Shown one piece after another: positions 3,700 through 64,000 of a stretch of DNA of 64,000 nt (positions are counted from its first letter, which is position 1; each line of letters starts with the position of its first letter). The position numbers and the translations under genes are program-made. Below the pieces are notes generated by a model, which did no database searches, had not been told where the DNA came from, and was given only the letters and a program-made list of their open reading frames with translations. Source of the stretch: Owenia fusiformis (taxonomy: Eukaryota; Annelida; Polychaeta; Sabellida; Oweniidae); assembly GCA_903813345.2 (NCBI GenBank), contig CAIIXF020000001.1, forward strand, positions 13,723,915 through 13,787,914, read 5' to 3'.

Positions 3700-5190
3700 T
3701 TTAAGAAGTGAAGTCGAACGAATGCAAAGGGTAGCCATACTGTGTTCTGATTGGTCAGAGAAGATAGTTATGATGTCTAGTTATGTACTTAATATAGTAC
3801 AATATACTGATGAGATAATTAAAATTTAACCTTTTCATGACCTCACCACTGATGACTTTGACCTTGCTTGAACTTAGTAAATTATTCAAAACAAGAGATC
3901 ATTTAAAAAGAATTAAGGCTCATGTGAAGTAGATGTTTGCAGTGTTGTAATGAATTGTATTGATAAATAGGGATACAGACTGAAAAATTAAAATTTTATG
4001 CATATTTTGAAAGACGTTCTATAACTTGTCAAGCAGGTGTTCCTTACAGAAGAGTGTTTTCTAAGTCAAGTTTCACTGTATAAGTAGATTGCCAAGCTTA
4101 CTTTTAACGCGGTTGTAATTTACCGAACGGCAAAAGAAGAAAAAATTTGAACATTTTGAACTGATTAAGATCTTTAAATTGTGAAGGTCTGAGTACCAGG
4201 ACCTCTTAGAAAACATCCAAACATATCAAAAAGTGAAGATGGGTCAATTTGATTCTCGTTCTCCCGAAGATATAATAAAATAGTTAAATGTTCGGAGTTT
4301 TTTTAATGCTGTAAATTGTTCACAATTCTAAATCGAGAAGTCGCTCGTATTTCTGTCGTATTTAGGAAATCATGTTGCCGAAAATCAGTGCACAGTGTTC
4401 ATGGTGTTGTTGTAAAATGTGCGTATATGAAACCCTCTCTAACGCAATTTTATTATAAACTAACACCTTAGGGTTAAACTATTGCTCGAGGAATTAACTC
4501 ATTTTCATCAATAAATATTAACCCATCAGGTTTTCTACTAATAAACTAACGTTAAAACCTCAGTCCATTGTCGTTATCACTTACTACTAAACCCAAGTGA
4601 GATATGGCTCTTGCCTCAGCACGAGCCAATAATACTGGTTGATTCAACACTTGCTAGCTTAAATTAATGGCATTTAATATTCAATGTCATTTTCATGTTA
4701 TTTTAGATTGACCTTCATTTTTAGACCAACAAGTAATTTGTTTACGATAATATATACATGAAGAAGAAATAACATGTAATAAACATTTTCTTGAGTTTGG
4801 AACTAAATTTTCTGCATTATGTATTTTTATACTTATATAATATTTTGACCTTTAAGTGATTTCTTGATGTATCATTACTCTCTTACAGTTGATTACTGTT
4901 CTGATTGACTGGTGTACGTGTCCAATCATCTCGATTCTGCGACATCATCTCATTTCCGACCACTTACTGTAAACCTAGTTACATCTGCTGCTTTTATTTA
5001 TTCTGAACTCAATATTTCTGCATTTTGTCTTCTGTCTGCATCAATATTTGCTTTTCTAGGACTAAGGTATTAAAGTTTGACTTAATTTATTGGTCAGAAA
5101 AAGACAAATTCATTTTCAAAAAGAGTGTCCTTGACAGATTTTATGGTTGGTTTTATGAGATATTTGTCTATTCCTCATTAAACCCTTAAT
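3700..5190. other. Non-coding stretch, nothing recognised
   Basis: AT-rich sequence without long reading frames or obvious repeats. If the promoter-like block at 3.6 kb is real, this would be intron of a plus-strand transcript. Confidence 0.5.
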
Positions 5191-5195
5191 TTTCT

Positions 5196-5450
5196 TTCCT
5201 TATTGTACCTTTTAATTTTCCTTCCTTACTAGTACCCCTTCATTTTCCTTCCTCATTATACCTCTTCATTTTCTTTCCTCATTTTTCCCCTTTATTTTCC
5301 TTCCTCATTTTTCCCCTTTATTTTCTTTCCTCATTGTACCCTTTAATTTCCCTTCCTTATTATCCCCCTTCATTTTCCTTACTCATTACCCCCTTCATTT
5401 TCCTTCCTCATTGAACCTTAATTTTCCCTTCCTCATTATATTCCTTCATA
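5196..5450. repeat. Pyrimidine-rich minisatellite, about 26-bp unit
   Basis: About nine or ten degenerate tandem copies of a unit like CCTTCATTTTCCTTCCTCAT. The plus strand is almost entirely C, T and A. Confidence 0.85.
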
Positions 5451-5882
5451 ATAATAATTTCATCCAGGGGATTCATGTCAAGATCCTCTAACTTATGACA
5501 TGCATACATTTAGCATCCATCTCTTAGCCACACATTTGGAAACCCATGTAGAGACAGAATCAAATAAAGTAAATTGGAACTCATATAATCTATGTTTGCA
5601 GAATTTAATCCTTGCATCTTGAATATTGGAGAGTCAACCATGTCATCCACTTGAAAACTACATGATGAGGCTCGCTGGAGCTTGACAGATGGAGATATTT
5701 GACTAATTATATTTGGCAAACCTGTAGATTACCCTCGGGTGATTTATCATAGTGCCATCCACAAACATGACAAAATAAATTGAACCAGTGAAATGAAGCC
5801 TTTTTTATTGGAGCCATCATCATTGCGTGTTTAATGTAATTACCTTGATTTGGAATGTTGTTTTTCGTTCTCTGTATAAGGA

Positions 5883-17429: not shown

Positions 17430-20060
17430 TGCAAGGATCACTATTCATATTAAATGTGCAAGGGATTGGAATTTATTCAACATATTGAATATTTAATACA
17501 CTAAATGTGTAGGGTATCACTATTCAACACATTAATTGTGCAGGAGATCACTTTTCATTCTACCAATTCAATATACTAATTAGTGTGTAGGGGATCACTA
17601 TTTAACACACTAAATGTGCAGGGATCATTATTCATTCTACCAAAGCAATATACCAAGTCTGCAGGGGTCTCTTTTCAACATACTAATTGTGCAGCCCGGA
17701 TTACTATTCATTCTACCAATCCAATATACTAATTAGTGTGCAGGGGATCATTATTCGACACACTAAATGTGCAGGGATCATTATTCATTCTGCCAAATCA
17801 ATATACTAAGTCTGTAGGGGATATCTATTCAATATACTATATATGCAGGGGATCACTATTCATTCTACCAATTCAATATACTAAGTCTGTAGGGGATCTC
17901 TTTTCAACATACTATATGTGCAGGGGATCACTATTCATTCTACCAAATCAATATACCAAGTGTGCAGGGGGTCTCTTTTCAACATACTATATGTGCAGGG
18001 GATCACTATTTATTCTACCAAATCAGTATACTAAGTCTGTAGGGGATCTCTTTTCAACATACTATATGTGCAGCCCGGATTACTATTCATTCTACCAATC
18101 CAATATACTAATTAGTGTGCAGGGGATCATTATTCGACACACTAAATGTGCAGGGATCATTATTCATTCTACCAAATCAATATACTAAGTCTGTAGGGGA
18201 TCTCTATTCAACATACTATATGTGCAGGGGATCACTATTCATTCTACCAATCCAATATACTAATTAGTGTGCAGGGGATCATTATTCGACACACTAAATG
18301 TGCAGGGATCATTATTCATTCTACCAAATCAATATACAAAGTGTGTAGGGGATCTCTATTCAACATACTATATGTGCAGGGGATCACTATTCATTCTACC
18401 AATCCAATATACTAATTAGTGTGCAGGGGATCATTATTCGACACACTAAATGTGCAGGGATCATTATTCATTCTACCAAATCAATATACCAAGTGTGTAG
18501 GGGATCTCTTTTCAACATACTAAATGTGCAGGGGATCACTATTCATTCTACCAATCCAATATACTAATTAGTGTGCAGGTGATCATTATTTAAAACACGA
18601 AATGTGCAGGGATCATTATTCATTCTACCAAATCAATATACTAAGTCTGTAGGGGATCTCTTTTCAACATACTAATTGTGCAGGGGATCACTATTCATTC
18701 TACCAATCCAATATACTAATTAGTGTGCAGGGGATCATTATTCGACACACTAAATGTGCAGGGATCATTATTCATTCTGCCAAATCAATATACTAAGTCT
18801 GTAGGGGATATCTATTCAATATACTAAATGTGCAGGGGATCACTATTCATTCTACCAATCCAATATACTAATTAGTGTGCAGGGGATCATTATTTAACAC
18901 ACGAAATGTGCAGGGATCATTATTCATTCTACCAAATCAATATACCAAGTGTGTAGGGGTCTCTTTTCAATATACTATATGTGCAGGGGATCACTATTCA
19001 TTCTACCAAATCAATATACAAAGTCTGTAGGGGTCTCTTTTCAATATACTATATGTGCAGGGGATCACTATTCATTCTACCAAATCAATATACCAAGTGT
19101 GCAGGGGGTCTCTTTTCAACATACTATATGTGCAGGGGATCACTATTCATTCTGCCAAATCAATATACTAAGTCTGTAGGGGATATCTATTCAATATACT
19201 ATATATGCAGGGGATCACTATTCATTCTACCAATTCAATATACTAAGTCTGTAGGGGATCTCTTTTCAACATACTAAATGTGCAGGGATCATTATTCATT
19301 CTACCAAATCAATATACAAAGTCTGTAGGGGATCTCTTTTCAACATACTAATTGTGCAGGGGATCACTATTCATTCTACCAATCCAATATACTAATTAGT
19401 GTGCAGGGGATCATTATTGGACACACTAAATGTGCAGGGATCATTATTCATTCTACCAAATCAATATACTAAGTCTGTAGGGGATCTCTATTCAACATAC
19501 TATATGTGCAGGGGATCACTATTCATTCTACCAATCCAATATACTAATTAGTGTGCAGGGGATCATTATTCGACACACTAAATGTGCAGGGATCATTATT
19601 CATTCTGCCAAATCAATATACTAAGTCTGTAGGGGATATCTATTCAATATACTAAATGTGCAGGGGATCACTATTCATTCTACCAATCCAATATACTAAT
19701 TAGTGTGCATGGGATCATTATTCAGCACACTAAATGTGCAGGGATCATTATTCATTCTGCCAAATCAATATACAAAGTCTGTAGGGGATCTCTTTTCAAC
19801 ATACTAATTGTGCAGGGGATCACTATTCATTCTACCAATCCAATATACTAATTAGTGTGCAGGGGATCATTATTCGACACACTAAATGTGCAGGGATCAT
19901 TATTCATTCTGCCAAATCAATATACTAAGTCTGTAGGGGATATCTATTCAATATACTAAATGTGCAGGGGATCACTATTCATTCTACCAATCCAATATAG
20001 TAATTAGTGTGCAGGGGATCATTATTCAGCACACTAAATGTGTAGGGGATCACAACTCAT
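17430..20060. repeat. Satellite array with a 152-bp higher-order unit
   Basis: The array is made of related 33-45-base monomers sharing GCAGGG(G)ATCA(C/T)TATTCA. In the central part four monomers form a unit of about 44+33+42+33 bases. The monomer start TGTGCAGGGGATCACTATTC recurs at 18221, 18373, 18525, 18677 and 18829, exactly 152 bases apart each time. Other sections use a simplified two-monomer unit of about 75 bases. Degenerate copies extend to about 17400 and 20220. Because about 75 bases is near a multiple of three, one strand stays open as a reading frame of roughly 25-residue repeats (17736-18188, 18949-19277). I regard these as non-coding. Confidence 0.95.
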
Positions 20061-20229
20061 TCTACGAAATTAATATCAATATTTTAAGTGTGTGAGGAAT
20101 CACGATTCAGCATACTAGATGTGCAAGAAATCACTATTCAATATACTAAATACATGTATATGGGATCACTATTCAACAAACTGAATATTTAGGGTATCAC
20201 TATTCAACACATCAAATGTTCTGAATTTG

Positions 20230-47453: not shown

Positions 47454-50400
47454 TCACTTTTCATTAGGATTAAATATATGTGGAATAGAGAAGAATACGG
47501 CAAGTGTTGAGGCCAACGTAAACGTAAGAAACACCCATAGGCACATTCTGTCAATAACCATTGCTGCAAATTTCCAATCGTTGATTTCCTCACCACTTTC
47601 ATTATCCTCTTTGATTTTGTTAGTTATGGATCTTAATTCCCTGAGGATCATTTTTAGTTCTGTTTTAGTGATAAAGTTATCGTCCTGTTGCATGGATGGC
47701 ATATCCCCGAAACTTGATGGTGTGTACGGATAGTAATCATCATCATCTTTAATGTTCATTATCAGGCTTTTAGAGGGCTGTAGTTGTTTTTCTAAGTCTC
47801 TCATAGCTGATTTTCTCTTGAGACTGCGTCTTGAAATGTCTCTGCCTGGGCGATGCAAGCGGACGACCCATGCACCCCACTCGCAGATCAACGTTTTCAC
47901 CTTAAAATGAATACCGTAGTTGTTATCAATTGAATAGTCTTCTCAGTGGTCTAGGGGTGAAATAAACTTAGTATTTTCAGGTTTTGTGAACAATGGAACT
48001 TAGACTTGAAATATACAGGGTGTTCCAAAAATATGTATCAGGGAATCGGAATCAACTGACATAGGGATAAAGGAGAAGATGACCTAATGGTTTTTAACAT
48101 TGTGTCAATGGGGATTTAGCATATAAGCTTTTTCAGAAAACTTAAAAATCCTTGGAAATTGAATACAGGAAAATAACTGTGCATAAAGTTGTTTTAACAG
48201 AAAAATTCCATACAGAATTCAAATATGTCATCAAATAGAAGAAAATGATAGTCTTTGATGACAAAAATGCATATCTCATAAATGAAAAGCGAGACTTGAA
48301 CGAGATTTCAAAGTTATAGTAAAGCCTATTCACCTCAATGTTCCACGGAAGAACTATTCGGAGGAGGTTCAAAATTGCTTTGAACATCCATGACATCAAG
48401 TTATTGATCACATCAATGGATGCAGTAATCATGTAAATGAATGAAAATGGGTATTTTCCCCCCAAATGAATCGAAATATTTACAGGGAAAAAACAATTCG
48501 AAGAAATGGTATCACGTACCCAGCTTGGCATTATGTACATGTCTGGATTCCTGTGGTGGAAGTTGAGAACTAACACAGTCAGGCAAACTGATAAGGTACA
48601 CATTACCATGATGCAGGCAAAATATACAGCTGCAAAAACATTAGAATCAGCTTGAAATTAAACACGAATATGATTGAATTTAAGTTTCACAAATGAGTAA
48701 AAAAACAAATTACTATTCATTCAGATACTCTGTTACTCAAAAATATTATATAGCGTTATAGGACTTCAGACAAAATGATGGTTTCCGCAAATGATATACC
48801 ATTGCATGGAGAAGGTCGTCATTTCCTTTGTTATAACGAACATCTGAGTAAAAAATAAATTGTGTCTGTGAGGTTATCTTAGCATTTTAAGAAAAATAAC
48901 TTGATCCCCATAGCGGACAAATGTTCTGATCTCACCCTGTAAATATATTCCCCATCAAACATACCTAATATCGGGACTGATCCTGAGGTGGCGGGTATCA
49001 TTTCAGCCACAATCATCATAAACACAGATAAGGCTAGCAGAATTGTCACACCTACATGGTAAAAATATATTGTGATCAGTACTAGTAGTATTATACAATA
49101 AGATATATTTCAATTTACGTGTGTTTTTTAAAAAAGGTACAAAACGTTACAAAAAATAATCGAAAATACATTTCTTACAAGCCCCTTTTAATCAAGGTGT
49201 TAATGTTCTTACCCAATCCGATTTTTTCTCCTGCATCGGGAGGAAGCACAAAGAGAAGAATGGAAATCGAAGAGATCATGAAACACGGGATGATCAAATT
49301 GAAGCCATAGTACAGTGTCTTGCGTCTTATGTGTAAAGTGAAGGTAACATCAGGGTATTCTTCAATACAGCACTCATATTTAAAAATGTTTCTTTCTGCT
49401 GGGTGAGCTGAAAAACAAAAAAAATATAACTAGAAATATTAATGATAGTAAAAAATAATCCAGGGAAAATAATACTGCAGGGAAAAATAAGTTGAATTTT
49501 TTCATTTGTCCGGAGTTTGTTTCCTTCCTTTGCGATTCAATGCTCCATTTACCAATTCTATGGTTTCTTCATTAATTTTTGGATTTTATTTTCCCATTTG
49601 GCAACCGTACTCGTATATCAATACATACTTACAATGACTTATAACTGAATTTATATAAATAGATGATACCTAACACAGCCCATTCTCCACTCTCTTGGTA
49701 GGTTGACATATCAATCTCGTTCCATTTCAGGGTTAGATTAATTTTTCCTGCATCATAAGTCCATGAACCAAATTTCATTATACACTTTTGTTCATCAAAT
49801 GGAAACCTATAAACATCACGACTTGTTTTAAATTATAGTTGATTTTCTACAATTGATTAGTAAGAAACAACACAAAATGTCCCTTCTCATCCCTTTGCTA
49901 TAACTTTTGTTCTGCTGGTTTTTCCTTTTGAAACTTTCACTGACAATCAGCATATTACCATTAAAGTTATTGTTACTATGGTAACCGTTGTTAAAGATCA
50001 ACTCACCATTTAATGTTTATTGAACAGGATGATATGTAGAGTCCAATTGGTACCCAGGTAAGAAGGCCACTAGAATACACAACAATGTTTGTCGAAAACT
50101 TCGAGTCAATATCTTCGTCAGCACTGAAAAGCATAGAGTGTTTTTTGAAAAATAATTCAACTCATTTTATAGAGAGAAATGAAGGTTTATATGAGCGATG
50201 AATATGATAATGCTAAGTTTAGCAGCAATGGATAAAATGGAAACTTTCAAATTTTGTCAATGACGGTTTATCCGAATATCTACTGAAAATCGTATCATAC
50301 AATCGCTTCCACTAAGAGTTTAATCATATAAATAGACAAAATGGAACTAAATTCCTGGAGTAAACACATTGTATTACCTATTATACATTAATATATCTGG

Positions 50401-52733
50401 TGTCCAGATCTTTTTAGCTGGAAGACGAATACTTGTAATATTTCCATAATCCTCTGGATTCCACTTCAGCTTATAATCGTGCCATGCCTGGATATATATT
50501 TCTATACATTTATATTTTAATGTCTATTCAAATGAAAAAAAGCAATAAAGTAGAATCATCCAGACACAATTACAGTATGGGACTTAGTAATAGCATAGTA
50601 TAGTGCAACGCAGTGTTGTTTAATGTTGTGTTTTATTGTGTAGTGTGGTGTAGTGTAGTGTAGTGTAGTGCTGTGCTGTGAAGTAAAGTATATTATGTTA
50701 TGGTATGATATGGTATGGTATAGTTTAATATTATTTTTATATAAAAATATACATAAGTATGTACATATGTATAAAAGCCTTTAAGAAGAAATAAAATATA
50801 GCTGATGAATGTAGATATATATTGATAATAATATCTAAATTGATTATTCAATTACTTGAAATATACTTACATAGTCTAGCCATACATTAGTGTTTAATAC
50901 TTCATTCTTTTCATCCTGTAAAGTTCAATCAATACAAAGAAATACATATCGAAATTACTATTTGATTTCCGAAATTATTACACGGTTTGTGAAATGAGAG
51001 GATGACTAAAATTTATACAAATTTAGAGCTACTTAAATAATTCAGATAAAACTACAAGGTAGACAAATATCCTTGTTTCATTTTGCTATAATTTTCTTCA
51101 CAATTCATGAATTTCAATAAAATTGTTTTGCGGATGATGCAAACTTGAATCATCGTGACTAAACTCAAAAATGATTCCTGCACCTTCATTAAAAGTAATC
51201 GCCAAATAAAAATATGGACGTCTTTTGGCTCGCCCCTTTTATAGAAAGTGTTATTGATTAGCACACATTGTAGATATACTCCTCAAAAAAAGTTAAGGAC
51301 CAGTATTTTTCCTCATAGGTTTACATGTTAAACCCTATGTATCTTTAAACTCTATTCTCTAAGCCCGAAACGAAAGAAAAACTAATAATGTAAATGAATT
51401 TGTACCTTGACTCTATTCTCTATATTTCAGAAAATTTTCAATTTAATCTCTCTATTACAATAGGTCAAAAATTGATGTCAAGGAACCCATGTTAACCAAT
51501 GTGAAATGGTGGGTTGGGGGCAAATCAGATTTTTGGATATGTTTTCGGTAAAACATTTATCAAAAATAATTTCTGAGTAGAGAATTGAATTTGCTAACTT
51601 GTCTACAACAAAAAATTGATTTGTTTCTCCAGGTTTTACAAAGTTATTAGTCTCAAATAGTCAAAATCATTTCTCATTAAGCCTCTCATTGAAATAACAC
51701 AGGGGGTAAAAAAAAACTTGAAAAAACTGGTCCTTAACTTTTTTTAGGAGTATATGTTAAGTCTGAAATACTACGCATGCTGTAAAGGATGGCACTAAAA
51801 CATAACACACAAACCAATCTGTATAAAGAATATTTCAGGACATCCATTCACTATGGGCCTGGAATGGGGTCCAAATGCACCACATATACTACCCAAATTA
51901 GGCTATTTCTGGTAGAGGTTATTTCTGTATTTTTATTTTAAACAAGAAGTGGAATACCCCAGAATTGATGATTAAAAGATGAACCTCTCGACAGAATTCA
52001 TATCTAGGAGATAATTCAATTCTATGGAAATTCCCCATCTATTTCAAACAATAGTAGTGAGAAAGCACAAAAAGAGCAACACCTGAAAAAACTCCACAAT
52101 CCCTATATAAGTCACAAAGAAAAATCTAAGAATAGTAGTATATGACCTTTGGATGTAGAACCAGTTGGCTTTGAACGAGTACACAGGACAATAGCTAGTT
52201 TTTGCCAAGGGGGGGGGGTTAAAAAACTCCAGGGGGTCCACATTTGACAATTTTGGCCCAAACCACTTGAAAAATGTGCCTGTTACACCAAATAGTACAA
52301 CGCTTGAGAGCTTGTCGTCTACTTATCAAAGGTGTACTGAAATGTTCTGTTACAATTTGGGCTTTTAGCAATTACTGAGTGGTAATAGGGTTATAGTTTG
52401 TAATATTTGGGTATCAGTAGCTGCAATAAGTAAAGAAAGATACACACCAACGCGGAATCATTTCATCTCCTACCATATGTTTAGCACTCTTAATATGTAA
52501 ATATAGGCAGAAAACCATGCATACAATGCAAAAAGACACTCGTTTTGCAATATCCTGTTGTGAGCAAACCATACCACTTACAATTCCAATGATTTGTTGC
52601 AACGATATCCCAAATACGACTTGAAGTGAATCAGTCTCCGTAGCAACAGGCCGCCCAAGCATATTGTAATTACGCTTGTCCTTGTTAAATATTTCATCTA
52701 TGAGTCTTTCCTCGTGTGGACCCTGCACGGATT
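47454..52733 (-). CDS. Nicotinic acetylcholine receptor alpha subunit, alpha7-like (gene 1), first exon missing
   Basis: Exons in transcript order: 52582-52733, 50871-50915, 50378-50487, 50007-50123, 49670-49806, 49213-49407, 48965-49051, 48520-48629, 47454-47900, all with matching phases. The protein runs from the mature N-terminus ([13 protein letters not shown]) through loop D Trp (LDYAWHDYKL), loop A ([10 protein letters not shown]), the Cys-loop ([17 protein letters not shown]), loop B (GSWTYD) and loop C with vicinal cysteines ([10 protein letters not shown]). These mark it as an alpha subunit with a full acetylcholine site. M1 ([14 protein letters not shown]), M2 ([16 protein letters not shown]) and M3 ([14 protein letters not shown]) follow, then an M3-M4 loop with an acidic DDDDYY patch, an MA helix ([14 protein letters not shown]) and M4 near the C-terminus. 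Pore rings Glu -1' and Glu 20' are present, but 2' is glycine. The signal-peptide exon, which must end one base into a codon, was not found between 52.74 and 56.5 kb. Confidence 0.94.
48520..48629 (-). other. M3 exon of receptor gene 1, near-identical to gene 2's
   Basis: This 110-nt exon and a few flanking intron bases differ from 57654-57763 at only a few positions; the roughly 117 bases starting TTGGCATT(A/C)TGTACATG show two differences. The adjoining exons of the two genes differ far more. Confidence 0.85.
48965..49051 (-). other. Single M2 (pore) exon of receptor gene 1
   Basis: 87 nt, encoding most of M2 and the M2-M3 linker ([20 protein letters not shown]). It is closest to exon B of gene 2 (59690-59776), including in flanking intron bases (CCTACATGG / CCTATATGG). 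No second copy was seen in the adjoining introns of this gene. Confidence 0.88.
50637..50725. repeat. GTGTA/GTATG microsatellite in a receptor gene 1 intron
   Basis: Repeats of TGTAG and TATGG over about 90 bases. Confidence 0.85.
51277..51753. mobile_element. MITE with about 26-bp terminal inverted repeats, TA-flanked
   Basis: The left end ACTCCTCAAAAAAAGTTAAG then GACCAGT (51278-51304) is inverted at the right end as ACTGGTCCTTAACTTTTTTT then AGGAGTA (51726-51752). Both ends abut TA, consistent with a Tc1/mariner-type target duplication. The interior of about 420 bases has no transposase. It sits in the intron between the first two mapped exons of receptor gene 1. Confidence 0.8.
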
Positions 52734-56881: not shown

Positions 56882-59800
56882 TCATTTTTCATTTGGATTG
56901 AATATATGTGGAATACAAAAGAATACGCCAAGTGTGGAGGCCACTGTATATGCAAGGAACACCCATAGGCACATTCTATCTATTACCATTGCTGCAAATT
57001 TCCAATCGTTGATTTCTTCACCATTTTCATTATCCTCTTTGATTTTATTTGTTATGAATCTCAATTCTCTGAGAATCATTTTGAGTTCTGTTTTAGTCAT
57101 ATTAAAATTATCGTCAGGTTGGATATTATGCATTCCTGCGTTTCGCATGTTTGGCATTCCCCCGTTAGTTGCTGGGAAGGGGGATGGGTATGGATAGTAA
57201 TCATCATCATCCCTAATGTTTGTGATGAGACTTTTAGACGGCTGTAATTGTTTTTCTAGATCTCTCATATCTGATTTTCTGATAAGAGTGCGTCTTGAAA
57301 TATCTCTGCCTGGCCGATGCATGCGAACAATCCATGCACCCCACTCGCAGATCAAAGTTCTCACCTGAAAATATATACTTGCAATAGTCATTGCACGCAA
57401 ATAAACCATAATGTAATACAATGGAAGACATGCCCTGTAAATATGAACATATCGCAGAACGTGTGTATGAGAATATTTCCTAAAAAATCTAATAATTTGA
57501 CTTATATTCTAAACTTTAAAACGTTACTTGAAATACGATGCAATTTTCAATCTCCTTCCAATCATCGATGAGTCACTTTGGACCAATCAAAAAATAGAAC
57601 CACACTTTCCTATATAAAATTTTTGTGAAAATACAAAATATCAAATGACGTACCCAGTTTGGCATTCTGTACATGTCTGGATTCCTGTGGTGGAAGTTGA
57701 GAACTAACACAGTCAGACAAACTGATAAGGTACACATTACCATGATGCAGGCAAAATATACAGCTGCAAAAACATGACAATAGAAATTAAAACAATTTAA
57801 AAGTAAATTATACCATTATACTATATTGTGTAATTGACAAGCTCTATTTTCCATCTATTTGATCATTACCTTAATATATTAGATTATATGATGTACAGTA
57901 ACAAAATAAATATTATCCCTTAAAGCCATCTATTATTTATGACAAACGAGACCACACATGATGTAACAATATCTACAAATACGAAACATGCACCTACACT
58001 ACACAACACATTGAACGTAAAAATATGACAAAAATCTAAATGATAAAAACGGAAGATATCATGATGATATGAGTCAAACGAATGTTCTTGCGTCTCTCTG
58101 TCTCCATGTTATTTGGTTTTACAGTGACATTCGTTTAATTAATGCACATACAGAGTGGTGAAACCCTTTATTTTGACCAGGGTGGTCGAATTCTGTATAT
58201 TTCCTCATACCTATGTCACATTAGGGAACACTCCCTGATATTTTAGACATTTGTACATCATTCATGCTACCATATTTCATAACAATCAGACTGATAGACT
58301 GATAGATGTTACGTCACTTTAAACAACATGTAAGGCATGGCCATCATCGCGCTTTAGGCAAACCTGCACATTTCGCCAAAAGTTGTCATTGACCCGACTG
58401 CATTCTTCAGAAGACATGGTCTGAATGACACATATGATTTCCCCTTTGAGGTCTGCAACTGTCATGAGGTCATTCTCGCACACTCTTTGTCTTTGGCGAA
58501 GATGAATCAGGTACGGACATTTTGGACGATGTGTGCAGGTTTGCGTACGATAGTGGCCACTTGAGCATGTTGTTAAAAGTGTTGTAACATTGTGACTATC
58601 AATCAGATGGTCATGAGACCCAGTAGAGTACATAGGTAGACTATTGTATGCACATTTCTTGGTTTCAACGGCTTGATATATTGTTAAAGCAGTTACATGT
58701 ATGAATGCAGGGCTACGAGTTTCAAAATACATTCGATTACATCCCCCTTTTTGGGACACTTTGGATGGGTTTTGTAAATCTTCGTGCACAGAATGGTATT
58801 CCTACTAGTTCTAATTCTAAATCTAAGCGATTTCTACATGTGTTAGCGCCATCTGTTTGATTGTATAGTATTATACATACTAAACCTATAGTAATATTGC
58901 TGAAACATTAATTGTCAAGGCACTAAACAATTAGTCTACGTATATTCACTTTGATCGTGCACACGGTTTACCTAATATTGGAACAGCCCCTGATGTTGCA
59001 GGTACCATTTCTGCCACTATCATCATGAACACGGAAAGAGCAAGAAGAATTGTTACACCTGAAAATGTTATACCAAAAAATGGTGAAAAAGAAAATATGG
59101 GTTGCCTTTGTGGGACGAAACAGAATTATAATCAAAAAGACAATAAGGCAGTGGGATTCCCAGTGCAGTATGTATATGCACATATATGCATCTTAGACCT
59201 TAGAAACGCTAGTTTATTACATTTTTCTGCATTCCCCGGCCTAAGATGCACATTATGACCTTCATAATCACATGTAAAAATCTAATATTTCAAGCATTTG
59301 GTGAATAGATTTCAGGTGAAAATAAAATACACCTGCCAACAATAGAAAACATTAAAGAGTCAAAACTAAAGATAATTTACTTAAAGAGAAAAGTAAGAAA
59401 ACTACACCTACATGTTTATAGAACAATATAAAAATATGAAAGTTATAATTTTGTGTTTGTTAGAAACAATAGCATGTTTCATTTACAACACAATAAATAT
59501 ACATTACAACACCAATCAGTGAGCATCCCCAAAAAATCCTGTTCTGTGCAATTTAAATATTGTATGCTAAATAAATAGTTGTACATTGGGTGGTTTTAAC
59601 ACAAGATTTTTTGAATGTGCAAACTGATCCCCTTAACCCTATCCTAAAATAATAACAATGAAATAAAATACACAATCGACCAGTCATACCTAATATTGGG
59701 ACTGAGCCCGAAGTGGCGGGTACCATTTCAGCCACAATCATCATAAAAACAGCCAAAGCTAGCAGTATTGTCACGCCTATATGGCAAAATATTATGATCT

Positions 59801-62800
59801 TAAATCTGGCACAAGAAATGAATCAGCTATAGGTTTTGTCATGATGGCATTGGTTGGTATTATTGCAATGTAAGTAATATATAATATGAGGATTTCAATT
59901 ATTGATGACTACAACTGAAAAACATTACACTCTTAATTTTTTATCACAGTTTGATGGTCCCATTAAAGGAGGAAAGGAAGTTTACGGACGAGAGTCGAAC
60001 TTGGGTACGAAATGCTGTTTAATAATTATTTTAATAAGTACTTCATGCTATACATTTTTATAAAGTGCCCAAGAGCTTTGCATTGATTACGTGAATATTT
60101 CTCGATTTCAAGGTTAACTGGCATGCATTTTGAAAAAATCCAAAAAGTTTTGCATCTTATATTTGATCATGTTATTTTCTCAGGTATTAAATTTTAGCTT
60201 TTAACGAATACACATTTGAAATAAATAATTGATCTTGACTCTTACATTTTACACTTGTTGGTAATATTTGCTACGACTTAATAGGCATACCATATGGTTG
60301 AAATTAAATTTCAGCCCCAGAAAGTTCAGCCCCATATAAAATGTTCTCAGAAACCTTGCATTAACATTTCAACACTTTTCTAATTTCGTTTGGGCAACTA
60401 TCTTATGCTTTAGTATAATATTTGAATTGTTTTATCATTAAATCTTCAACATAACATTTGTCGAATCTTTGGTGTAACTGAAATGATCTATGGAATTGTT
60501 GTTCTGGATTGTGCCAATTGTTTATTTGCCAATGCTTATGAAATGTGAACACTGTAACTGCATATTCTCCAAAAGGGAATTCTGGTTTAAACTGACGGCA
60601 TTGATATTAAATACTCAGTCACCATTTAAGCACAAAATGAAAATACAATCGAGTTTGAGAAAGTGTTAGAAATATCAATGTAACGTAGGTGATAACGTAT
60701 TTTGCAATTTACTAGAACATAAAATCACACGAACTTTACCTAATGAGACTTTTTCTCCTGCATCGGGAGGAAGCACAAAGACTAGGATGGCAAGAGATGA
60801 AATCATGAAACACGGGATGATCAAATTGAAGCCATAATAAAGTGTCTTGCGTCGTATGTGTAAAGTGAAAGTAATATCAATGTATTCTTCTATACAGCAC
60901 TCATATTTGAAAATATTTCTTTCTGCTGGGCGACCTGAAAAACAATAATTATTGGTTAGAATTGTACATACAGTAATAGTGCCTACATTTTTTCTATGCA
61001 ATATTGTTGATATTGCATGTATTAATAAATTAATTTGGTACAGCCCCTGTGGTATCTATAACACCATTCAAAAATGTAAACTTTATAAATAAAACTCGAT
61101 TTTAACAGTTAGTTCAGTCATCTCGCGTATTGTCGTCTTAAACATGTTGAATTTGAGATTAGAATCCAAACACCGTCAGCAGACCTGCATCGTCAAAGTA
61201 AAAACTATGATACTTTAACTATTTTTTTGTAAATCTGGACACATATGATATTACCTATTAATGCCCATTCTCCACTTTCCTGGTAGGTTGAAATGTCTAC
61301 CTCTTGCCACTTCAGTGTAAGATTGACATTTGCTCCATCATAAGTCCATGAACCAAATTTCATTATACACTTTTGTTCATCAAACGGAAACCTGTAACAA
61401 ATAGTTTAATTCAAATTGATTAACAATAGTACAGCAAAAAATAACACAAATAATAAATCATTATATTTTAATTCTTGAATGTCACGTTTTCTAAAAGAAA
61501 TACGTACCATTTAATGTCTATTGAACATGATGATATGTAGAGACCAATTGGCACCCAACTGAGTACCCCAGTAGAGTACACAACTATGTTCGTTGAAAAT
61601 TTTGAATCGATGTCTTCATCGGCACTGAAACAGAGTGTTTAAAAAATGTTAATACAAATTGAATTAAAAGTCCTTTAAAGAAGCACATTTCAAATGACAA
61701 GTTTGTTTATTACAATTAACTGATCAAATATTTCATTCTGTTCAGGTTCATCTTTCAATGATTCTAGCAAGGTGTATGTACCAAAGCCTTAATGGCCATA
61801 GGAACAAATTAAACCTTGAAAATCATTGAAAGTGCAATATTTGTTTTTATTCACTGATAATAACTTTTCTTTGAGATTATCAAACTATGATCAAACTATA
61901 TATACTATCTAATCGTACTGAATATAATATTTCATGAAATATAAAAGAAGGATCATTTAAAGCTAATATATAAAAATATTAATCTGAACAAAGCTTGCTA
62001 TTAGGTAAACTGTTATGCCTTTAATGCATGTAATAATGATAAATATGATAATCTGAACAGCCAATAATTTATTATCTAGTAGTGATTTTATATATATTAA
62101 ACTCCACGACAAAGCTTTGTATGGAATGACATAATCATATAATCACTAATTCACATACCATATAATTTATGGCATTGTGTTCTGGCGCATATTCCCATAA
62201 GATTGATATGTGTCTATTAGTGATTTATCAATATGAAATACCTGGATATTTCGTTTATATTATACTTTTAAAGGGCACATGCAATATACCTTTCAAAAAC
62301 AGAAAAACAAGTGAAGAAAATATCAAAATAGAATTTCAAAATGATCGTATAACACAGATGAGGCAAAGTTGGATACAATAGATGGATTGTGATAGTTTTA
62401 ATGATGTTCAATGATCGCAGGAGATGAGTGCACAAGCTACTCCATATTATATGATCATAATAGGCAACGTTATACCTTGCAAGGAAGGATGGAAGATATA
62501 TTATCATATCAAAATATCAATGTTAGTTTGAGGACTAAAACCACCGTCTGTTACTATCGAAGAAGGGGGTTATAATGTCCAAGCGGCAACCTAGCCATAC
62601 TTACCGTTTGCAAAAGAGTCAGTGATAAAAGTAAACTAAAGTCCTTCTAATAAGCATAAATCGAGGCATTGCAATCATATTTAGGCCTATAGCGAGGACA
62701 GCTTAAATGATTTCAATGCAACTGTTAGCTCTTGTATTACCCAGAAGATTACCTATTATACATAAGAATATCTGGCGTCCAAATGTATTTTGCAGGAAGT

Positions 62801-62862
62801 CTAATACTCGTGATATTACCGTAGTCTGCAGGATTCCAATGCAGCTTATAATCAACCCATTC
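56882..62862 (-). CDS. Nicotinic acetylcholine receptor alpha subunit, alpha7-like (gene 2), 5' end outside window, two M2 exons
   Basis: Exons in transcript order: 62753-62862, 61508-61624, 61255-61391, 60740-60934, then M2 exon B 59690-59776 and/or exon A 58972-59058, 57654-57763, 56882-57364. The mapped part encodes the loop D Trp (EWVDYKLHW), loop A ([10 protein letters not shown]), Cys-loop ([17 protein letters not shown]), loop B (GSWTYD), loop C vicinal cysteines ([10 protein letters not shown]), M1, a choice of M2, M3, the intracellular loop with the MA helix ([14 protein letters not shown]) and M4, ending NPNEK like gene 1. The pore start is GEKVSLG (Ser at 2'). Its last exon is 36 nt longer than gene 1's owing to a Met/Asn/Pro-rich insertion in the intracellular loop. 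The equivalents of gene 1's 152- and 45-nt exons were not found up to 64000. Exon lengths and phases equal those of gene 1, so the pair is a tandem duplication. Confidence 0.94.
58310..58790 (-). pseudogene. Decayed IS630/Tc1/mariner-type transposase C-terminal fragment
   Basis: In the intron between gene 2's M3 exon and M2 exon A. The minus-strand reading frame (58319-58789) ends with a segment ([30 protein letters not shown]) laid out like the C-terminus of mariner-type transposases: a helical linker, then RR/L-CL---G-H. An upstream [10 protein letters not shown] sits where those proteins have a PxSPDLxPxD catalytic-Asp motif, here not conserved. The N-terminal DNA-binding part was not seen. 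Assignment is from memory of the family pattern. Confidence 0.45.
58972..59058 (-). other. Alternative M2 exon A of receptor gene 2
   Basis: 87 nt between acceptor ATTTTCAG and donor GTAAAC, entering one base into a codon and leaving one base into a codon. It encodes [16 protein letters not shown] and [12 protein letters not shown]. It is intact, with no stop. It differs from exon B at two residues (Ser for Ala at 12', Ala for Ser in the M2-M3 linker) but at many synonymous sites, implying purifying selection on both. Confidence 0.88.
59690..59776 (-). other. Alternative M2 exon B of receptor gene 2
   Basis: 87 nt between acceptor GCCATATAG and donor GTATGA, with the same phase as exon A. 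It encodes [16 protein letters not shown] and [12 protein letters not shown]. It is closer at DNA level to gene 1's single M2 exon than exon A is, so it is likely the ancestral-type copy. Confidence 0.88.
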
Positions 62863-63832: not shown

Positions 63833-64000
63833 TAAATTATATTACATATAATAAACTATTAAATTTTGTATTTGGGAGTTGAATTATGTTGCATTCATCA
63901 TCAACAACTGAACATCTAGTAGAACAAAAATCAAGAATAAATAATTCTGTGCAAAAGGTAATGTGACAACGGGCTGTGGCTACACCAAAGAATAGTAAGC

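Follow-up and report, generated by a model that had tools for sequence, protein, structure and literature searches.

Does a single nicotinic receptor gene of the annelid Owenia fusiformis exchange the exon that codes for its pore helix, and if so, what ensures that only one version enters each messenger? The window analysed here, a stretch of 64,000 nucleotides (C1:13723915-13787914), carries on its reverse strand a receptor gene with two exons for the M2 segment and the M2-M3 linker, exon 8A (59690..59776; Ala at 12', Ser at 28') and exon 8B (58972..59058; Ser at 12', Ala at 28'), each of 87 nt. A preliminary description of this DNA had reported two such exons about 630 bases apart, with the same phases and intact borders, and its coordinates stand: the gap is 631 nt, both copies start and end in phase 1, and each is preceded by AG and followed by GT. 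The exons on either side also lie where they had been placed, the M1 exon at 60934-60740 and the M3 exon at 57763-57654.

Judged by sequence, the predicted product is clearly an alpha7-like nicotinic acetylcholine receptor subunit. Among solved structures the best 13 of the 60 matches listed are all alpha-7 (best E 3.4e-138), and alpha-3 and alpha-4 follow among those 60 near 1e-111. The isoform assembled from exons 2a, 4b and 8A matches both Neur_chan_LBD (PF02931, E 1e-70) and Neur_chan_memb (PF02932, E 4.3e-54), and the translation contains a Cys-loop whose two cysteines enclose 13 residues, the adjacent cysteines of loop C (YECC) and the GEK motif before M2. Over the M2 exon, 18/29 residues are identical to human alpha-7 in 8A and 17/29 in 8B.

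The 29-residue products of the two exons differ solely at 12' of M2 (Ala in 8A, Ser in 8B) and at 28', which lies in the M2-M3 linker (Ser in 8A, Ala in 8B); positions are counted along the alignment to alpha-7 and named by the M2 prime numbering scheme. At the nucleotide level 21 of the 87 bases differ, 18 of them synonymously and 3 nonsynonymously by the NG86 count (pS 0.77, pN 0.047), which bears out the earlier remark that the exons encode nearly the same helix despite many synonymous differences. The repeat extends over 92 nt at 77% identity (E 3e-14), which excludes a chance likeness of 8A and 8B, and its alignment ends 2-3 bases outside the exons. When 21 changes were placed at random on 8A with the same share of transitions, discarding placements that created a stop, every one of 100,000 runs gave at least 6 residue changes against the 2 observed, so that 0/100,000 were as conservative as the real pair. 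Because 18 synonymous changes stand against 3 nonsynonymous ones, with two residue changes as the outcome and a match confined to the exons, the pair is on sequence grounds an old duplication, both copies of which were kept by purifying selection on the protein; the saturation of the synonymous sites argues against recent conversion between them. Mutually exclusive exons are recognised as homologous copies in tandem that agree in length and phase and are both conserved, and 8A and 8B show this pattern. Exclusive choice between the two is, we infer, what explains the pair best.

The gene continues past base 64000 of the window, and reading a further 9.2 kb revealed that the M2 pair is one of three duplicated sets. 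In the direction of transcription the other two are exons 2a (C1:13791087-13790936) and 2b (C1:13790649-13790498), of 152 nt each, which code for the N-terminus and whose products are 69% identical, and exons 4a (C1:13788694-13788585), 4b (C1:13788198-13788089, just past the window end, as is 4a) and 4c (62753..62862), of 110 nt each, which code for the extracellular region ending in the WTPDILMYN motif. The remaining exons were each found once: exon 3, of 45 nt (C1:13788896-13788852), exon 5 with the start of the Cys-loop (61508..61624), exon 6 (61255..61391), exon 7 with loop C (YECC) and M1, ending in GEKVSL (60740..60934), exon 9 with M3 (57654..57763), and exon 10 with the M3-M4 loop, M4 and the stop (56882..57364), those in the window being on the reverse strand like 4c. 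The preliminary account of the gene was thus right as to the exon 8 pair and missed the duplicated exon 2 and the triplicated exon 4, which lie mostly outside the window. AG and GT flank every one of the 7 copies in these sets, and the order is 2a-2b-3-4a-4b-4c-5-6-7-8A-8B-9-10. No exon from another set was found between the copies of any set, which marks them as duplicated exons, as distinct from remnants of broken genes. We consider it probable that this alpha7-like subunit gene has three sets of alternatives, 2a/2b, 4a/4b/4c and 8A/8B, from each of which one exon is normally chosen per mRNA.

For exon 1, which would code for the signal peptide, one candidate was seen 5' of exon 2a, and the neighbouring receptor gene described below gave two that did not convince; none was accepted. 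The intron between exons 2b and 3 contains a tandem repeat of about 700 bp (C1:13789679-13790378) with a unit of about 110 bp by alignment offsets, and a long inverted repeat was seen by reading upstream of exon 2a, at about 4500-5500 of the 9.2-kb stretch past the window (L004). Elsewhere in the window, a 152-bp unit is repeated 17 times in a satellite-like array at 17495-20076. A search of the assembly for COX1 gave no match.

A second receptor gene lies on the same strand of the window, with exons 2-10 at 52733-47454, and in this paralogue every exon was found single. Its one copy of exon 8 (48965..49051, reverse strand), which served as a comparator, has Ser at both 12' and 28'. The exons 2, 4 and 8 of the neighbour match 2a, 4b and 8A best, with some flanking intron sequence in common; dS to these three is 0.79, 0.15 and 0.54, respectively, against 1.58-2.03 to the other copies of the same sets. 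With the gene at C10:23.2 Mb as outgroup, 8A and the neighbouring exon 8 have 5 derived bases in common, 8B and the neighbour 1, and 8A and 8B 1. Between the two genes dS is 0.04 for exon 9, 0.15 for exon 4/4b and 1.49 for exon 5. The near-identity of exon 9 and exon 4/4b beside an exon 5 that is far diverged at synonymous sites is clear evidence of patchy gene conversion between these two genes. Stretches that include flanking intron are 94-96% identical around exon 9 (48511-48647 compared with 57645-57781) and around exon 4/4b (50350-50494 compared with C1:13788061-13788205). The likely order of events on these comparisons is that the exons were duplicated first and the gene afterwards, the neighbour then losing the alternatives; given that conversion has been patchy, this order is likely rather than proven.

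The single exon 8 of the paralogue, as far as searched, bears on another account of the pair, namely that the gene in fact relies on one of its exons 8, while the other is seldom or never included in the messenger and is slowly decaying as a duplicate. The silkworm alpha6 gene would offer a parallel, as the cDNAs reported for it contain exon 8b only despite the presence of 8c (PMC1919356). We nevertheless think a dying duplicate unlikely, since the 21 nucleotide changes have produced just 2 residue changes and left both borders intact, and since one copy should have been broken had decay been neutral over a distance at which synonymous sites are saturated; these observations are still compatible with use having been lost recently.

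Mutually exclusive choice would be secured differently in the three sets, as can be seen from the reading frame. All 12 combinations that take one exon from each set (2x3x2) are open over 478 residues after exon 1. By comparison, all 7 of the double, triple or skipped forms of exons 2 and 4 that were tested run into an early stop: exon 2 doubled or skipped, 4a+4b, 4b+4c, all three copies of exon 4, and exon 4 skipped stop after 9 to 152 residues, and 4a+4c stops after 152. Double use or skipping in these sets leads to an early stop, so the frame itself would enforce single use; wrong products of sets 2 and 4 would be removed in this way, presumably with the aid of nonsense-mediated decay. The preliminary description had pointed out that inclusion of both M2 exons would keep the frame, and this is indeed the case: 8A and 8B together give an open product of 507 aa and omission of both one of 449 aa. 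The frame filter being absent for exon 8, any exclusion between 8A and 8B must come from control of splicing, and regulation would be needed for this set.

The splicing signals themselves are ordinary and do not predict exclusion, 8A and 8B being alike in having 9/15 pyrimidines and 4/6 donor matches. An intron of 631 nt is too long for simple steric exclusion. A duplex search among the three introns around 8A and 8B gave no significant pairing, with 12/15, 9/15 and 12/15 shuffles as good or better. For the stretch upstream of 8B the predicted fold is a good one (z -3.8), with the 8B acceptor paired to CACCTGAAA some 240 nt 5' of it; by our estimate nine paired bases in 3 kb are near chance, and the pairing was not counted. 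The intron after 8B contains a strong fold-back element at 58300..58600 (z -9.5, no strand assigned), for which 39 other copies covering at least 243/301 bases at 73-78% identity were found among the 40 candidates scored of 895. Being a dispersed repeat rather than a feature peculiar to this gene, it was not retained as a candidate splicing device.

These features also bear on the idea that the M2 exons are combined, a double-M2 or M2-less form being a regular product with a dominant-negative or non-channel role. The frame is kept in either form, and the G at +5 of the 8A donor and the CAG acceptor of 8B make direct joining of 8A to 8B seem possible. Against this, M3-M4 would presumably take the inverse topology behind a second M2, the frame is lost on double use in this gene's other two sets, and the comparable exons of insect alpha6 are described as mutually exclusive (PMC8505678). 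Regular combination is in our judgement improbable, and mutually exclusive use of 8A and 8B is the reading that we retain.

Tandem exon copies are also present in four other receptor genes of the genome, where the counts are lower bounds, as searches with single exons find only sequence that resembles the query. There are three copies of exon 4 at C10:21718861-21720099 (L006:4862-6100) and two at C9:37715876-37718680 (L007:3877 and 6574), with borders that seem intact by eye in both genes. Exon 7, which codes for loop C and M1, is duplicated at C10:23212441-23212902 (L001:942-1136 and 1209-1403), as two copies of 195 nt with intact borders and a 72-nt intron between them; this pair at C10:23.21 Mb has pS 0.69 and pN 0.25, and its copies differ at the start of M2 (GEKLTF versus GEKISL). 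Exon 2 is present twice at C12:21802557-21802891 (L028), where the 48-nt intron between the copies may make splicing from one to the other hard. No adjacent pairs of exons 5 or 6 were seen when the genome was searched with these exons. Such further sets, together with three sets within one gene, make it most improbable that the second M2 copy is an assembly artefact from a collapsed haplotype or a misjoin, the more so as 21/87 bases differ, far beyond allelic difference, and similarity ceases within 2-3 bases of the exon borders.

A tree of exon-4 products (30 rows of the 81 exon-4 matches, 35 columns), in which 17 of the 26 inner branches are open, groups the copies at C10:21.72 Mb together (91/96) and places the copies at C9:37.7 Mb in one group with the single exon 4 of a gene at C9:26.73 Mb (96/94), the second C9:37.7 Mb copy pairing with that single exon (99/94). 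By this grouping, exon duplication would again have preceded the separation of genes. Exons 4a, 4b and 4c of the gene studied here are weakly placed (46/76), and the tree favours, without showing it, a separate origin for each set of exon-4 copies. Searching the genome for M2 gave 72 matches, among which two M2 exons were seen only in the studied gene; M2 was seen on an exon of its own in four genes, namely this one, its neighbour, and those at C10:23.2 Mb and C9:37.7 Mb.

As to what the exchange might achieve, the choice between 8A and 8B would tune gating through positions 12' and 28' with little change in selectivity, because all M2 positions except 12' are identical in the two exons. The relevance of 12' to gating in Cys-loop receptors, invoked in the preliminary description, is backed by the epsilon mutation T264P at M2 12', which is reported to prolong openings through slower closing while unitary current is unchanged (PMC8024024); the available part of PMC6801167 has nothing on 12'. 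Exchange of Ala for Ser is milder than T264P, so it may plausibly alter open time or desensitisation. Subunits with 8A and with 8B, if mixed in one pentamer, could grade the effect on gating. Since both residue differences are conservative, the functional gain from having two exons could also be small or nil.

Taking these strands together, we offer a wider picture that is tentative and that we hold at slightly less than an even chance: a single gene giving rise to up to twelve subunits through three exon choices, a pore choice that arose at the same exon as that in insect alpha6 but independently of it, a neighbour that kept 2a-4b-8A and lost the alternatives, and finely graded gating in mixed pentamers. 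The gene would then be a natural test of the effects of 12' and 28' with all else constant, and a modular gene beside a fixed one is a pair in which to ask how variety in splicing disappears once a gene has been duplicated.

One parallel among known systems is NALCN, where exons 15a/15b (31a/31b in arthropods) are described as mutually exclusive pore-segment exons in molluscs, annelids and others (PMC3557258). That channel belongs to an unrelated family, and its alternative exons are reported to swap a selectivity-filter residue (E/K), whereas 8A and 8B leave M2 the same except at 12'. Insect alpha4, like the studied gene, has a tandem alternative exon for the extracellular domain, 4/4', which is reported to change loop E and residues near the Cys-loop (PMC2064938). 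Unlike in alpha4, the Cys-loop exons 5 and 6 of the studied gene were found once, and the triplicated exon precedes them. Vertebrate CHRNA7, to which we take accession NM_000746 to refer, provides the closest solved relative of the subunit. The corresponding vertebrate exon is treated as constitutive in a legend of PMC1919356. Literature searches that covered titles and the openings of abstracts, for the most part outside subscription journals, showed among the entries listed no report of alternative M2 exons in nicotinic receptor genes outside insects, and the term 'alternative splicing' is absent from the main text of PMC6896357, on lophotrochozoan receptors, as far as that text was available.

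The closest precedent is insect alpha6 (Drosophila D-alpha-6), and its existence qualifies the earlier remark that alternative exons for the pore helix are uncommon in nicotinic receptors: mutually exclusive exons 8a/8b/8c for TM2 and the TM2-TM3 loop are tabulated for it together with exons 3a/3b in loop D (PMC8505678 Table 1), its alternative exons are considered to predate the divergence of the insect orders (PMC1919356), and in Tribolium all six combinations have been detected by RT-PCR (PMC2064938). Our locus would hence be an elaborate new example of M2-exon swapping and not a new kind. Both genes have tandem exons of the same phase for TM2 and the TM2-TM3 loop along with an alternative extracellular-domain set. 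In alpha6 that second set is exon 3, in loop D, and exon 8 is present two to three times, whereas the annelid gene has a single exon 3 and duplicates exons 2 and 4; as its exon 3, of 45 nt, was found once, we do not file it as an alpha6 gene. Tribolium exon 8c is reported to alter a conserved glutamate (PMC2064938) that 8A and 8B leave unchanged. Within the Owenia genome, 8A and 8B differ from the M2 exon at C10:23.2 Mb by 9/29 and 8/29 residues and from each other by 2/29, which suggests that they are likely the outcome of a duplication separate from, and later than, that of insect alpha6. What is new is the likely separate origin of the M2 pair, the exon 2 and exon 4 sets and the pairing of a modular with a fixed gene. 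If transcripts confirm this picture, duplication for exchange has probably happened to one and the same exon of this receptor class two or more times, and the exon for M2 and the M2-M3 linker would be a preferred tuning point of nicotinic receptors.
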